From NCBI GenBank assembly GCA_945874125.1, contig CAMCFB010000005.1:1-52398 (forward strand): 52,398 bases of DNA, written 5' to 3'. The first letter of the stretch is position 1; every line of letters begins with the position of its first letter. Of this stretch, positions 37,458 through 42,493 are shown one piece after another. The position numbers and the translations under genes are program-made. The notes under the pieces were generated by a model. That model made no database searches. It was not told the origin of the DNA and was given only the letters and a program-made list of their open reading frames with translations. Origin of the DNA: Verrucomicrobia subdivision 6 bacterium. Lineage in GTDB: Bacteria; Verrucomicrobiota; Verrucomicrobiia; Methylacidiphilales; Verrucolacustridaceae.

Positions 37458-38296
37458 GCCCCGCCCCGAAAAAAAGTCAGCCCGCCTCCGATGTCATCCT
37501 CGAGGTCAAGGATCTGGTGCAACGCTACAACGGACGCGCCGTCCTCAACGGCCTCAATTTCAAAGTCCGGCAAGGCGAAACCTTTGTCATCATGGGTGGC
37601 AGCGGTTGCGGAAAAACCACTCTCCTGCGAATTCTGATCGGCGCCCAAAAACCCACCTCTGGCTCCGTTCACCTTTTCGGGGAGGACATCACCCAAGCAT
37701 CCCCTCAAGAGCTCGACCGTATCCGACTTCGGTTCGGAATGAACTTCCAGTTTGGTGCCCTTTTCCAATCCATGACCGTGGGCGAAAATATCGCCCTGCC
37801 TCTTCTCGAGCATAGCCAAGTCGACCCCTCCCTCATCGAAATGATCGTCAAAATGAAACTGGAGCTGGTCGGCTTGACTGGTTTCGAAAACTTCAAACCC
37901 TCCGAACTCAGCGGAGGCATGCGCAAACGAGTCGGTCTCGCCCGCGCCCTCGCCCTCGATCCCGAACTCCTCTTTAGCGACGAACCCACCTCTGGCCTCG
38001 ATCCCGTCATGACCGCGGTGGTCGATCAGCTGACCCTCGATAGCACGCGCAAGATCGGCGTCACCGCGGTGGTCGTCAGCCACGATATGACCAGCTGCTT
38101 TCGCATCGCCACCCACATGCTCATGCTGGGCAACGGACCCCGCCAAGGGGAGATTATCGCCGAGGGCACGCCCGAGGAAATCCGCGCCAACCCCGATCCT
38201 TTCCTGCAGCAATTCGTCCGCGGGGAGGCCGACGGACCCATCGCGTTCCGCCTTTCGCAAGATGATTACTTGAAACACCTCCTACAAGAGGGCTGA
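37454..38296 (+). CDS. mlaF: MlaF-type ABC transporter ATPase
   Basis: 280 residues from the ATG at 37454 (ATGA overlap with mlaE). Walker A 'GGSGCGKTTLL', Q-loop 'FQFGALFQSMTVGENIALPL', signature 'LSGGMRKRVGLARAL', Walker B 'LLFSDEPTSGLDP', H-loop 'VVVSHDM'. The extended C-terminus ('FVRGEADGPIAF') is typical of MlaF, where it holds MlaB. It powers lipid transport through MlaE. Confidence 0.93.
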   Translation: MSPAPKKSQPASDVILEVKDLVQRYNGRAVLNGLNFKVRQGETFVIMGGSGCGKTTLLRILIGAQKPTSGSVHLFGEDITQASPQELDRIRLRFGMNFQFGALFQSMTVGENIALPLLEHSQVDPSLIEMIVKMKLELVGLTGFENFKPSELSGGMRKRVGLARALALDPELLFSDEPTSGLDPVMTAVVDQLTLDSTRKIGVTAVVVSHDMTSCFRIATHMLMLGNGPRQGEIIAEGTPEEIRANPDPFLQQFVRGEADGPIAFRLSQDDYLKHLLQEG

Positions 38297-38313
38297 ATGG
38301 TCAACTTGTCATT

Positions 38314-39018
38314 ATGAAAAAAGTGCGTTCCGACTTCCTCATCGCTGCCGCCGTCATTCTTTGCAGCTTGGTTCTTCTCGGCGCACTCTCCTTGGCCATC
38401 TCCGGAACCGATCTGAACCGCCCCAAAGCCGTCTTAACCATCGACCTGCCCAGCGCGGTCGGACTCGATCGTCAGGCCCAAGTCCGTTACGCCGGAACGA
38501 TCGCCGGCCGCATCCGATCCATTCGTCCTTTGACCGATGAGGAGCGCCTGAAAGAATCCCCCGGCTGCTTAATTCGTGTCGTGGCCGAAATCCGTCATCC
38601 CTTGCCCACCATTCGGTCCGGCACGGTGGCCGCGGTAATCTCCGATACGGTTTTGGCGGAAAAGTACCTCAACTTGGAACCCGGCCCCATCGTCAACCCT
38701 CCTCTGCCGCCAGGCGCACTCATCTACGCGAAACACTCCGCCAACCTGGATGAGGTGCTCACCTCGGGCAAATCCTTGATCGATGGGGTCAATACCCTCC
38801 TCACCAAAAATGAAACGGCCGTCACCCAAGCCGTCCTCGATATCAAAAATGTTTTGGAAAACTTTAAAGTAGTCGCGACCTACGCGAAAACTTTCATGGG
38901 AACGGTTGCCCGCAAGCCTTGGCGCCTCCTTTGGGGTGGGCCCGTTCCACGCCTCCCCTCGGAGGAGAGTATCCTCAAAACCGACCAAGTTGTCCCTGCC
39001 CCCGTACCCAACGATTAA
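38314..39018 (+). CDS. mlaD: MlaD-like MCE-domain lipid-binding protein
   Basis: 234 residues: one N-terminal transmembrane anchor (about 8-31), then an MCE domain ('VGLDRQAQVRYAGTIAGRI', 'VAAVISDTVLAEKYLNLEPG'), then a helical tail. MCE proteins form hexameric rings in the periplasm on top of MlaE and bind phospholipid. No mlaC or mlaA is nearby. 17 bp separate it from mlaF. Confidence 0.9.
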   Translation: MKKVRSDFLIAAAVILCSLVLLGALSLAISGTDLNRPKAVLTIDLPSAVGLDRQAQVRYAGTIAGRIRSIRPLTDEERLKESPGCLIRVVAEIRHPLPTIRSGTVAAVISDTVLAEKYLNLEPGPIVNPPLPPGALIYAKHSANLDEVLTSGKSLIDGVNTLLTKNETAVTQAVLDIKNVLENFKVVATYAKTFMGTVARKPWRLLWGGPVPRLPSEESILKTDQVVPAPVPND

Positions 39019-39026
39019 TACCCTTT

Positions 39027-39458
39027 GTGTCCGAGGAAATTTCCCGCCCCGAAGCCTCGACGGAAATCGAACTCGCTCCACCTCGCCTGCACGGCCTCCG
39101 CTCCTTGGCCGAACGATGGGCCCAAACCGTCGGATTTGACTCCACCGCGATCAGCGAAATTCTGGCCGGATTTGATGAGGCCTTAGCCAATATTCATCTT
39201 CACTCCTACTCGGCCCGCCCAGGTACGGTTCGGATCGATGTGGAAACGACCCCCCAAGAGCTCATCTTTCGTATTTCCGACCACGGCAAAGCTTTCATCC
39301 CCGAACACGCCCCCCGTCGCCAGCCCGGCGAGATCGGCCAAGGAGGATGGGGCATGCTCCTGATGCAAAAGGGGTTCGCCAGGATCGAGCGCAAACGCGT
39401 CGGCGGAAAAAATATACTTCTTCTCGCCCGCTCCCTTCCCGTCCAAAAAGGAAGGTGA
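39027..39458 (+). CDS. RsbW-like HATPase (anti-sigma factor / serine kinase)
   Basis: 143 residues from a GTG at 39027, 8 bp after mlaD. GHKL ATPase motifs: N box 'FDEALANIHLHSY', G1 box 'ISDHGKAF', G2 box 'GQGGWGMLLM'. These small kinases bind a sigma factor or phosphorylate a STAS partner. The STAS gene four genes upstream in the same operon is the natural candidate substrate; no sigma-factor gene is in the window. Its stop overlaps the MBL start by one base. Confidence 0.85.
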   Translation: MSEEISRPEASTEIELAPPRLHGLRSLAERWAQTVGFDSTAISEILAGFDEALANIHLHSYSARPGTVRIDVETTPQELIFRISDHGKAFIPEHAPRRQPGEIGQGGWGMLLMQKGFARIERKRVGGKNILLLARSLPVQKGR

Positions 39459-40324
39459 TGAAACTGCACTTCTGGGGCACCCGCGGAAGCATTCCCACCC
39501 CATCGACTGCATCCATTCCCACCCAAGAGTTTGGGGGTGACACCACCTGCCTCAGCCTGGATTGGGGGAAAGAAAACCTACTCATCCTCGACGCCGGCTC
39601 GGGCCTCCGCCAAGCTGGCCTCGAATGGGCCGCCCAAGGTCGCCGCGCCTTCACTTTTCTTTTTACCCACTCCCACTGGGATCATTTGCAAGGTTTCCCT
39701 TTTTTCACGCCCGCCTTTCGACCGGGTACCGAGATCACCATCTACTCCCCCCGCCTTCCCGGTGCCCACGCGGGAAATCTGATCGAGCGCTCCCTCCACG
39801 CCCAACAAAGCGAACCCTTTTTCCCAGCCGGATTTCCCATGCTCCGTGCGAAAATTATCTTCCACGAAATCCAACCTGGCCACCCGCTGCAACTTTCCGC
39901 TGGCTCCGACTCGCTGCAAATCCACGCGGCCGCCGTTTCCCACCCTGGCGGGTGCCTGGCCTACCGTGTCGAGGGCTCCCCTGGAGGAAAAAAGTGCTCC
40001 TTTGTTTTTGCCACCGATCATGAACCCTCGCCCTCCTCCCCCGGCCCTCTTCGCGAACTCGCCCACGAAACCGATCTCCTCATCTGCGACGGCCAGTACA
40101 CCCCCGCCGAGCATGCCCAACGTATCGGCTGGGGCCACGGCACCCCCGAACTGTGCCTGCAAGAGGCCGTCGCCGCCCGTGCCCGCCGCCTGCTGATTAC
40201 TCACTACGACCCCACCCACTCCGATGCCAATCTCGCCCAACTCGAAAAAGAGTTTCAAAAGACGTCTCACTCCTCCGGAATTCCCGTCGCCTTTGCCCGC
40301 CAAGGGCAAACGGTGGCACTGTAA
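39458..40324 (+). CDS. MBL-fold metallohydrolase (phosphodiesterase-like)
   Basis: 288 residues from the ATG at 39458. Metallo-beta-lactamase fold with 'FTHSHWDHLQGFPFF' (H-x-H-x-D-H), 'SHPGGCLAYRV', 'FATDHEP' and 'LLITHYDPTHSD'. The family contains cyclic-nucleotide and nucleic-acid phosphodiesterases; substrate unknown. Last gene of the STAS/Mla/kinase operon. The final 30 bases of coding sequence (40288-40317) occur again 1.36 kb downstream at 41651-41680, where the reading frame would end '...ALTP' instead of '...AL', suggesting that the original 3' end was displaced by an insertion. Confidence 0.85.
   Translation: MKLHFWGTRGSIPTPSTASIPTQEFGGDTTCLSLDWGKENLLILDAGSGLRQAGLEWAAQGRRAFTFLFTHSHWDHLQGFPFFTPAFRPGTEITIYSPRLPGAHAGNLIERSLHAQQSEPFFPAGFPMLRAKIIFHEIQPGHPLQLSAGSDSLQIHAAAVSHPGGCLAYRVEGSPGGKKCSFVFATDHEPSPSSPGPLRELAHETDLLICDGQYTPAEHAQRIGWGHGTPELCLQEAVAARARRLLITHYDPTHSDANLAQLEKEFQKTSHSSGIPVAFARQGQTVAL
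40288..40317 (+). repeat. Direct repeat copy 1 (3' end of the MBL gene)
   Basis: 30 bases matching 41651-41680 at 28 positions; the 22 bases 40296-40317 are identical to 41659-41680. Copy 1 encodes the MBL C-terminus (ARQGQTVA). The two copies bracket the ATPase gene. Confidence 0.9.
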
Positions 40325-40402
40325 AAAACCTCACTCTGGACCCGTGCTTGGGCCACGTTGAACCACCCCAAAACACCAATCGGGAATGTAACCATTTTTA
40401 TA

Positions 40403-40450
40403 TATATCGTAAAATGGTCTTGACCATAATACGGTATATCGTAATTTGGT
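40403..40450 (+). promoter_or_regulatory. Promoter/operator region of the ATPase gene with paired direct repeats
   Basis: An AT-rich block in a GC-rich chromosome. TATATCGTAAAATGGT (40403-40418) and TATATCGTAATTTGGT (40435-40450) match at 14 of 16 positions and start 32 bp apart, about three helical turns, as expected for two protein-binding sites on one DNA face. Between them lies the palindrome ATGGTC-TT-GACCAT's 14 bases (40414-40427), overlapping a TTGACC -35-like element (40420-40425). The second repeat ends 3 bp before the ATG, so a regulator bound here would block translation start or a near-leaderless transcript. Confidence 0.5.
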
Positions 40451-40453
40451 ACT

Positions 40454-41647
40454 ATGATTCCCCGGATGTACGACGGAATTTTGGCCGACCATTTCCGAAC
40501 CAATCGGCAAATGGCTTTTCTCGCCGGGCCACGACAGGTCGGAAAAACGGCGCTCGCCCGTCAAATGGCGGACCTTTATCTCAACTATGACAATCTGGAT
40601 GATCGCCGCGCCATTCTGCGGGGTCCTGCTGCCCTGGCCGCCAAAGCGGAATTGGATCGACCGCGTACCCACCTTCCCCTCATCGCCATGGATGAGATTC
40701 ACAAATTCCTAAAATGGAAATCGTTTTTGAAAGGTTTTTTCGATGGGTATGGAAGACAGTGCCGGGTTCTCGCCACGGGCAGTGCCCGCATGGATATTTT
40801 TCGAAAAGGAGGGGACAGTATGCTGGGACGATACTTTCTCTATCGCCAACACCCCTTCAGCGTAGGAGAAATTCTCCGCCCGCAACCTCCCCGCCAACTG
40901 CTACGTGACTCTTCGAAAATCGATTCAGCCTCGTGGGATGCACTCTGGAATTTTGGAGGGTTTCCCGAGCCGATGCTCAAACAAAGTTCAACTTTCCTCA
41001 GGAAATGGCAGGCGAACCGGATCGATTTGCTCTTGCGGGAAGACGTGCGTGACCTGACCCGCGTACAGGAGCTTCGCTCCCTCGAGACCCTCGGCCACAT
41101 TCTCGCCACCAGATCGAGCCACCAACTCATTTTCAGCAATCTTGCCCGGGAGATTTCGGTCAGCGTCGACACCGTCCGCCGTTGGATCGCGATTCTTTCC
41201 TACCTCTATATCGGGTTCGAACTCAAACCGTGGTTTAAAAATGTCGCCAAAGCTCTGCGCAAAGAGCCGAAATGGTATTTGCGGGACTGGTCGCCCATCT
41301 CCGACCTAGGTGCTCGTTGCGAAACATTTGCCGCCGGCCACTTTCTCAAAGCCGTCGAGACCTGGTCGGACCTGGGGTTGGGCCAATTCGAGCTCCGTTA
41401 TGTTCGGGACAAGCAGAAACGCGAGGTTGATTTCCTCATCGTCCGGAATCAAATCCCATGGACTCTCATTGAAATCAAAGCCTCGCGCAGTGTCCTCTCC
41501 CCTGCCCTTTACCATTTTCAAAAAGAAACAGGAGCCAAACACGCCTTTCAAGCGGTACTCGATTTACCCCATGAGGCGATTGACTGCTTTGCCTACCGCA
41601 CACCCGTGATCGTCCCGCTACGAACCCTCCTGTCCCAACTGCCCTAA
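40454..41647 (+). CDS. AAA-type ATPase with DUF4143 domain
   Basis: 397 residues. N-terminal AAA_14 ATPase: Walker A 'GPRQVGKTALA', Walker B 'LIAMDEIHKF', sensor 'VLATGSARMD'. Middle helical region with 'FGGFPEPML', typical of this family. C-terminal DUF4143 domain with 'REVDFLIV' and 'TLIEIKAS', a D...E-x-K pattern reminiscent of PD-(D/E)XK nucleases. Cellular role of the family is not established; its genes are patchily distributed and often look transferred. The gene has its own AT-rich promoter and is bracketed by a duplicated segment of the preceding gene, so it is probably a recent acquisition. Confidence 0.88.
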   Translation: MIPRMYDGILADHFRTNRQMAFLAGPRQVGKTALARQMADLYLNYDNLDDRRAILRGPAALAAKAELDRPRTHLPLIAMDEIHKFLKWKSFLKGFFDGYGRQCRVLATGSARMDIFRKGGDSMLGRYFLYRQHPFSVGEILRPQPPRQLLRDSSKIDSASWDALWNFGGFPEPMLKQSSTFLRKWQANRIDLLLREDVRDLTRVQELRSLETLGHILATRSSHQLIFSNLAREISVSVDTVRRWIAILSYLYIGFELKPWFKNVAKALRKEPKWYLRDWSPISDLGARCETFAAGHFLKAVETWSDLGLGQFELRYVRDKQKREVDFLIVRNQIPWTLIEIKASRSVLSPALYHFQKETGAKHAFQAVLDLPHEAIDCFAYRTPVIVPLRTLLSQLP

Positions 41648-41650
41648 ACA

Positions 41651-41680
41651 CACCTTTACCCGCCAAGGGCAAACGGTGGC
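41651..41680 (+). repeat. Direct repeat copy 2 (relic of the MBL gene 3' end)
   Basis: Second copy of 40288-40317, 3 bp after the ATPase stop. Read in the old MBL frame it gives TRQGQTVALTP then a stop (TAG, about 41690), so it looks like the original end of the MBL gene left behind the inserted unit. Confidence 0.88.
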
Positions 41681-41701
41681 TCTTACGCCTTAGCCCTAAA
41701 A

Positions 41702-42493
41702 CTAGTGGCCGGCGGCGGAGGCTAAGTCCCCCACGCGAGCTGGCTTGCGTGCCGCAAATTTTCCTTCTGGATTCACCCACCCATCCTTCCCATTGGCGGC
41801 GCTCACCTCCGCCCAACCTTCTTTAAATTTCTTTGCCCGCAAAAACTGAGGCTCAATTTTCCACTTCCCCTTGGCATCCACATAACCCCACATCGAACCC
41901 GATCGGGCCGGAATCAAGCCCTCACTCGAATCCCCCAACTCCTCAAATCTGGGCTCGACCAAAAAATTGCCCCTTGGATCGACTAAGCCCCACTTCCCAC
42001 CCACCGCCGCCGGGGCCATCCGATCCCCTACGGGAGAAGCTAACTCCATCCCTACGATTCCCTCGAAATAGTCGGTTTTATCGACCAAGCCGGGTTGTCC
42101 CCCCAACTGGACCGCCGCCACCCCCTCCCGCAAGGGACGGACATCGGAAAAGTAGGGTTTCACCACCCATCCCCCGTTTCGATCAATCAACCCCCAAAGC
42201 TTCCCCTCCCGCGCCGGCGCTAACCCCCCCGAAAAAGGCCCCACCCAATCGTACCGTTCCCGCCCGACTCGCTGAAAATCTTCATTCAACAAATACCAAT
42301 TTCTCCCCTCCCGCACCCCCGCTCGCCCCTCCGTCAACGGCCAAGCCCAATCCCATCTCGCCCTCACCACCAGCTCACCGGAACCATCCACGTAGCCAAA
42401 CTTTTTCCCCAACCGAACCGGCTGCACCTGCCCCATCTCCCCCGCCCAACTAACCGTGACAAATCCGACGACAAAAAATAGAAAAAATCTCAC
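41702..42493 (-). CDS. Exported WG-repeat protein
   Basis: 263 residues from a GTG, with a signal peptide (about 1-17). The rest is six or so WG repeats, each of the form '(K/L)WG(L/Y)(I/V)D-x-x-G-x-(W/F)-x-(V/I)-x-P-x-F': for example 'KLWGLIDRNGGWVVKPYF' and 'SMWGYVDAKGKWKIEPQF'. WG-repeat proteins are beta-rich binding proteins of the envelope or outside; partner unknown. Convergent with the ATPase unit; its stop is 21 bp from repeat copy 2, meaning that the insertion did not disrupt it. Confidence 0.88.
   Translation of the reverse strand: MRFFLFFVVGFVTVSWAGEMGQVQPVRLGKKFGYVDGSGELVVRARWDWAWPLTEGRAGVREGRNWYLLNEDFQRVGRERYDWVGPFSGGLAPAREGKLWGLIDRNGGWVVKPYFSDVRPLREGVAAVQLGGQPGLVDKTDYFEGIVGMELASPVGDRMAPAAVGGKWGLVDPRGNFLVEPRFEELGDSSEGLIPARSGSMWGYVDAKGKWKIEPQFLRAKKFKEGWAEVSAANGKDGWVNPEGKFAARKPARVGDLASAAGH

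Follow-up and report, generated by a model that had tools for sequence, protein, structure and literature searches.

Insertion of a single-gene AAA+ ATPase–nuclease unit at a gene end with a 34-bp target duplication, and similar scars around other PDC-S01 genes

Here we describe a self-contained unit of 1,329 bp—a promoter region and one gene for an AAA+ ATPase–nuclease of the PDC-S01 family—that very probably reached this genome by lateral transfer and went in at the 3' end of an MBL-fold gene, where that gene and its convergent neighbour meet; 34 bp of target sequence were duplicated in the process. Genome comparison establishes the insertion itself, the single-copy empty site, the duplication, and the recurrence of such scars around other family members; self-mobilisation by the putative nuclease that the unit encodes is a possible driver. 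We address the unit and its target, the empty site in relatives, the encoded protein and its distribution, the array upstream of the gene, the scars around other members of the family, and the routes by which they may have formed.

The Inserted Unit and Its Target

The window, meaning the whole stretch of DNA that was analysed (52,398 nucleotides from a Verrucomicrobia subdivision 6 bacterium), is contig 5 of a 1.38-Mb draft genome in 77 contigs. Its relevant features are as follows.

39458–40324, + strand: target gene, MBL-fold protein (Lactamase_B_2, PF12706) of 288 aa, with the same length and end as in the closest relative
40290–40323, no strand: left copy of the 34-bp target duplication, still encoding the MBL C-terminus
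40324–41652, + strand: inserted unit of 1,329 bp (leader, promoter/operator region, one gene), missing at this site in relatives
40407–40451, + strand: operator-like array, common to close relatives of the ATPase gene
40454–41647, + strand: AAA_14 + DUF4143 ATPase/nuclease of 397 aa (PADLOC PDC-S01)
41653–41686, no strand: right copy of the 34-bp target duplication, a non-coding remnant in which the stop codon position is mutated
41702–42493, − strand: convergent neighbour gene with KFGYVD/KWGLVD-type repeats (recognised by eye alone); in the empty-site relative, this flank and the MBL gene are contiguous

Positions 40290–40320 and 41653–41683 form a direct repeat that matches at 29 of 31 positions, and alignment to the relative with the empty site extends it to a target duplication of 34 bp (40290–40323 and 41653–41686). 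The flanks that bracket the gene match each other with a blastn E-value of 2e-8, and the bracketing score at the ATPase locus is 25, against a maximum of 15 in 233 control windows of the same geometry on this contig; the repeat is therefore not a chance match. Exactly one gene lies between the copies, and the region 40324–41652 holds no integrase, transposase, methyltransferase, or second gene; within the window, no terminal inverted repeat bracketing the ATPase gene was found. On inspection, the insertion junction falls at the final base of the MBL stop codon. This arrangement is read most simply as an insertion of 1,329 bp (40324–41652, a promoter and one gene) that duplicated 34 bp of its target; the two copies in the window now differ by substitutions. 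A first-pass annotation of this DNA had proposed a discrete single-gene unit at the end of the MBL gene, bracketed by a repeat and free of integrase, transposase, and terminal inverted repeats; these proposals are borne out, with the repeat lengthened by alignment and the flanks contiguous in a relative.

The Empty Site in Relatives

Twenty congeners were searchable, and the MBL gene was located in most of them. The closest (G009, locus L003) encodes an MBL protein that is 92% identical, and its locus aligns to the window at 38001–40323 (95.6% over 2,323 nt) and again at 41653–42226 (84.3% over 574 nt). In the relative, 34 bases fall in both alignments: there is one copy there and two in the window, with the flanks contiguous. 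Every congener with readable sequence downstream of the MBL gene has other DNA at that place, and never the ATPase gene. A single copy of the repeat in relatives without the ATPase gene is what the first-pass annotation had predicted for an insertion; the opposite pattern that it had named, with the ATPase gene and both repeats in all relatives, is not what the congeners display, as they lack the ATPase gene there.

The same comparison bears on an explanation to which we give hardly any credence, namely that the repeat is an older tandem duplication of the MBL end (an alternative that had also been raised in that annotation) or an assembly artefact, either one unrelated to the ATPase insertion. 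An assembly of 77 draft contigs lends this some plausibility; however, the single-copy relative has neither a second copy nor the ATPase gene and its two flanks adjoin, the two copies in the window are not identical, and the same architecture recurs in unrelated genomes.

The last codons of the MBL gene reveal the fate of each copy. In the closest relative the gene ends GCT-CTT-TAG (Ala-Leu-stop), and the left copy in the window reads GCA-CTG-TAA, also Ala-Leu-stop, with only silent differences from the relative in the last codons. The right copy reads GCT-CTT-ACG, with ACG where the relative has TAG, so that the stop is lost. Judged by these codons, the left copy has remained constrained as coding sequence, and decay is under way in the right one. 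Most congeners with a readable MBL C-terminus stop directly after the leucine at this position; the exceptions are L006, which adds DPPR, and L012, which ends IDC, and neither ends ALTP. The MBL gene has the same length and end position with or without the inserted unit. Since the closest relative ends "...AL-stop" and no relative ends "ALTP", the gene was not given a new 3' end—this overturns two earlier proposals, that copy 2 had kept an ancestral "...ALTP" end and that the unit had brought in a replacement.

The flank to the right of the unit (window 41690–42226) is about 84% identical to the closest congener, against 95.6% on the left. The lower identity falls mostly within the different, convergent gene, where five other congeners reach 73–77%. 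This divergence may reflect either faster evolution of that gene or later recombination; recombination beside the unit is possible given the drop in similarity to the relative from 96% on the left to 84% on the right.

The ATPase–Nuclease Protein

The encoded protein matches AAA_14 (PF13173) with 76.1 bits (cut-off 27), DUF4143 (PF13635) with 86 bits (cut-off 28.1), and the PADLOC model for PDC-S01 with an E-value of 4e-50; all 64 aligned relatives also match PDC-S01 models in PADLOC. The Walker A motif spans residues 25–32, Walker B lies at D80-E81, and a helix-turn-helix-like segment lies at about residues 227–257. Residues G30-K31-T32, D80-E81, E290, D326, E340, and K342 are invariant in the 64 aligned sequences, and the last four are arranged as in PD-(D/E)XK nucleases. 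An AlphaFold2 model (mean pLDDT 93.5) has these putative nuclease residues set among a helix, three strands, a second helix, and a further strand. With the whole protein as query, the best Foldseek matches in the PDB are AAA+ DNA machines (RFC, Orc1, RuvB), with low overall TM-scores; no close PDB relatives were found by sequence. By its profile matches and conserved residues, the protein is an AAA+ ATPase fused to a predicted PD-(D/E)XK nuclease domain, and a member of the PDC-S01 family.

In one account (PMC12988326), PDC-S01 consists of an ATPase joined to a domain of the PD-(D/E)XK superfamily and ranks as the fourth most common defence across prokaryotes. The same source states that experimental validation is pending for most such defence candidates, and we found no validation of a phage-defence role for PDC-S01 in the literature consulted, the available part of that paper included. 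The description in that part makes no mention of mobility, flanking duplications, or an upstream operator array.

Lateral Origin and Distribution

The nearest homologue of the ATPase is 74% identical and comes from a metagenome-assembled genome labelled Chthoniobacter. The next is 57% identical, from Armatimonadota, and similar values are found in Planctomycetota, Proteobacteria, Acidobacteria, Lentisphaerae, and others. Within the genus, the 20 congeners hold only paralogues of 25–34% identity, in two genomes, and none was found to share the same ATPase insertion. Taken from these identities and this distribution, lateral acquisition of the gene is well established, and its presence is lineage-specific.

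The absence of a shared insertion among the 20 congeners weighs against a Campbell-type event, in which a circle carrying the unit and one target copy would recombine with the chromosomal copy by a single crossover, giving repeat-unit-repeat; such circles would come from recombination between the repeats in another strain. This model does predict the observed repeat-unit-repeat with a single-copy empty site, and the longer examples among other loci (100–240 bp) are long enough for RecA. However, a repeat of 34 bp is barely long enough for RecA recombination, and the model covers strain-to-strain spread at one locus, not the first arrival at a new one. We consider it improbable as the origin of the insertion in the window.

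Some further observations concern the wider distribution of these genes. Many genomes of the phylum carry numerous DUF4143 genes (G073, G144, G158, G190, G248, and others), several of them at least 14. A plasmid of Sinorhizobium chiapasense, pB, has a lone DUF4143 ATPase gene within a conjugation gene region (L319, 2489–3712), and a Bandiella plasmid has two adjacent ORFs annotated as AAA family ATPase and DUF4143 (L313, 2501–3523), which suggests a broken gene. No flanking duplications were found in eight plasmid-borne members.

The Upstream Operator-Like Array

The region before the ATPase start codon contains three half-sites: TCGTAAAATGGTC at 40407–40419, the inverted GACCATAATACGG at 40422–40434, and TCGTAATTTGGTA at 40439–40451. 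The array overlaps a −35-like TTGACC at 40420–40425; a sigma-70 promoter scan of the inserted unit gave no match above threshold. The close clade has the same design: before the start codon, units based on TCGTAAAATGGTC are repeated in inverted and direct orientation, overlapping a TTGAC −35-like element, and the array is common to most close relatives (window 40407–40451; upstream regions of L057–L136). At least two AATGGTC-like sites occur in 61 of 80 upstream regions, compared with 15 of 301 for neighbouring genes, and strong self-repeats are found upstream in 80% of cases, compared with 22% of neighbours and 4% of shuffles. Distant members differ; those on rhizobial plasmids carry TTTCAAATnGTC-like direct repeats.

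The half-site varies between several loci, yet the copies agree within any one locus, which points to a putative regulator with locus-dependent specificity. Most simply, this regulator may be the encoded ATPase protein itself, which has the helix-turn-helix-like segment near residues 227–257. In the search for terminal inverted repeats, inverted matches above shuffles were found at only a few loci among the relatives (L107, L057, L105). At L107, the operator palindrome (36 bp, 100% identical) flanks the ATPase gene on both sides as a direct repeat.

Scars around Other Family Members

Duplications of this kind, some of them of a neighbouring gene's end, recur around other AAA_14/DUF4143 genes; a survey for such cases, as proposed in the first-pass annotation, was thus successful. 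The close relatives with enough flank number 76, counting the window, and 13 of these carry a direct repeat with a score of 18 or more in the 400 bp on either side of the gene, against 3 of 418 control windows from the same loci. A uniform bracketing test (blastn E<1e-6, 500 bp each side) found a direct repeat around 32 of 161 AAA_14/DUF4143 genes and 9 of 255 neighbouring genes (p=9e-8), where the survey was of best-scoring matches, some from one genome, and the neighbouring genes were unmatched for accessory status. Several of the bracketed loci are dispersed or tandem repeats and not target duplications; once the count is restricted to repeats that occur exactly twice in the locus, 21 of the 161 genes remain as clean cases, and 5 of 247 among the neighbours (p=1.2e-5). 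Nearly all of this evidence comes from draft genomes. About 80–87% of family members have no recognisable duplication, and so most members may usually arrive in some other way, or the scars may fade with time.

Fic genes, which also form a single-gene accessory family, are bracketed in 5 of 46 cases, 2 of them clean; their rate is intermediate, and the difference from DUF4143 genes is not significant. For this reason the scar may not be specific to the AAA_14/DUF4143 family, and the Fic cases suggest the same mode of insertion in another single-gene family. Three Fic genes (L195, L203, and L277) are bracketed by long direct repeats of 117, 55, and 152 bp, respectively; the repeat at L277 resembles a duplicated gene end, and at L203 the right copy lies at +1 to +55 after the Fic stop.

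The clean duplications range from about 25 to 244 bp in length. The right copy often begins no more than about 60 bp from the ATPase stop codon, and about 75–200 bp usually separate the end of the left copy from the start codon; since the copies end near the gene borders, the moved unit is close to "promoter + one gene". In L032, L056, L170, L226, and the window, an upstream gene has had its 3' end duplicated; at L043 and L055 the duplication covers the 5' part of a downstream gene. At L055 the start region remains in the downstream copy, and in the window the target gene stays whole. No motif is common to the duplicated sequences; only two pairs are similar, both in non-clean loci.

Two of these loci, L032 and L055, have a clear single-copy empty site of their own. 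At L032 (G055), 182 bp from the 3' end of a 411-aa ORF are duplicated, and four congeners have a single copy with contiguous flanks. At L055 (G015), 47 bp from the 5' part of the downstream gene are duplicated, and both copies map to one place in four relatives, the window's own genome included. Support is weaker at L056 (G042), where the unit is missing in the congener G039, with the flanks 14 bp apart, and a dispersed element adjoins the repeat at the L056/G039 site. L043, with 100 bp duplicated around the 5' end of the downstream gene, offers partial evidence in that one relative has the downstream gene only.

The location at gene 3' ends, recurring in L032, L170, L226, and others, would fit a site-specific integrative element that supplies a replacement end and has its integrase in trans; the earlier idea of a minimal cargo moved in trans was of this kind. 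We regard such an element as very unlikely, and rejected site-specific 3'-end integration on the ends of the relatives' MBL genes, which are not ALTP, and the lack of a common core among the duplicated sequences. The unit holds no integrase gene, and the target duplications differ in sequence and length, some of them lying at 5' ends (L043, L055); with no common site and lengths of about 25–244 bp, they are a poor fit to a site-specific integrase.

Two other kinds of target were considered and set aside. The repeat in the window folds into a small hairpin; across the 21 clean cases, however, the median z-score for hairpins or terminators was 0.02, equal to that of control segments. ARAGORN calls no tRNA at the borders. 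The 168-bp repeat that brackets L061 (upstream −486 to −319 and downstream +202 to +369 of the ATPase gene) looks, by eye, like a tRNA 3' half on the minus strand; ARAGORN calls none there.

How the Insertions May Have Arisen

The duplications are consistent with a simple sequence of events. The target would be opened by two breaks or nicks, one on each strand, separated by 34 bp in the window and in general by tens to hundreds of bases; the unit would be joined into the breaks and the gaps filled, leaving an insertion with a long target duplication. In the window, the left copy would then keep the MBL gene intact as the right copy decays, and the insertions that survive would be those leaving both neighbouring genes working. 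The choice of target is probably not site-specific, because duplication length varies widely and there is no common motif. Ten genomes carrying such genes or the empty site were searched for a Ku homologue and none was found; hence Ku-dependent end joining was rejected, and the classical Ku-LigD pathway is not the repair route.

What made the breaks is the point on which two readings part. In the first, the gene is passive cargo: illegitimate recombination by the host joins incoming DNA into a staggered break in the chromosome, the duplication is a scar left by repair, and the cargo is retained as useful or addictive. Scarred genes would then be seen only since single useful genes survive. This is a rival on the driver and is compatible with the insertion event, and we hold it to be a serious contender at somewhat less than an even chance. 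It is favoured by the same scar, at a lower rate, around Fic genes, by duplicated sequences of variable length that lack a common motif, and by the absence of a separate mobility gene from the unit. Against it stand the strong enrichment of the scar relative to neighbouring genes and the lack of Ku in the ten genomes, which removes the classical end-joining route.

In the second reading, the breaks would be made by the nuclease: PDC-S01 genes would be self-mobilising single-gene elements whose protein binds its own upstream array and makes distant staggered breaks, giving rise to long target duplications. We rate this full version as unlikely.

Relation to Known Systems and Significance

Insertion with a long target duplication has been described for restriction-modification genes (Nobusato et al. 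2000; Furuta et al. 2010; via PMC3874152 and PMC1643837). As far as the available parts of these sources go, the likeness is close—a small unit unlinked to a known mobile element, a duplication that is long (around 100 bp in order of magnitude) and variable, and an empty site with one copy in a related genome. The cargo there is a restriction-modification system, whereas here it is one AAA+ ATPase–nuclease gene with duplications of about 25–244 bp. Integrative elements and genomic islands also enter gene 3' ends with a direct repeat; however, here there is no integrase, replacement 3' end, or common attachment core, and duplications occur at 5' ends too. Insertion sequences and DNA transposons likewise duplicate their target, usually by 2–14 bp; in contrast, the insertions described here have no transposase or terminal inverted repeats, and their duplications are far longer and more variable.

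The type of event is thus already known from restriction-modification genes, and what is new is its repeated use by an abundant family of single-gene ATPase–nucleases. The PDC-S01 family appears to spread one gene at a time, and the scar, together with the clean empty sites, gives a concrete and testable route of spread for an abundant defence candidate. The long-target-duplication mode reaches beyond restriction-modification genes, with a hint that it extends to Fic genes as well. Whether the protein binds its own gene can be asked directly by way of the conserved operator-like array. If PDC-S01 genes do mobilise themselves, an abundant "defence candidate" would be, at least partly, a selfish nuclease gene that spreads itself.
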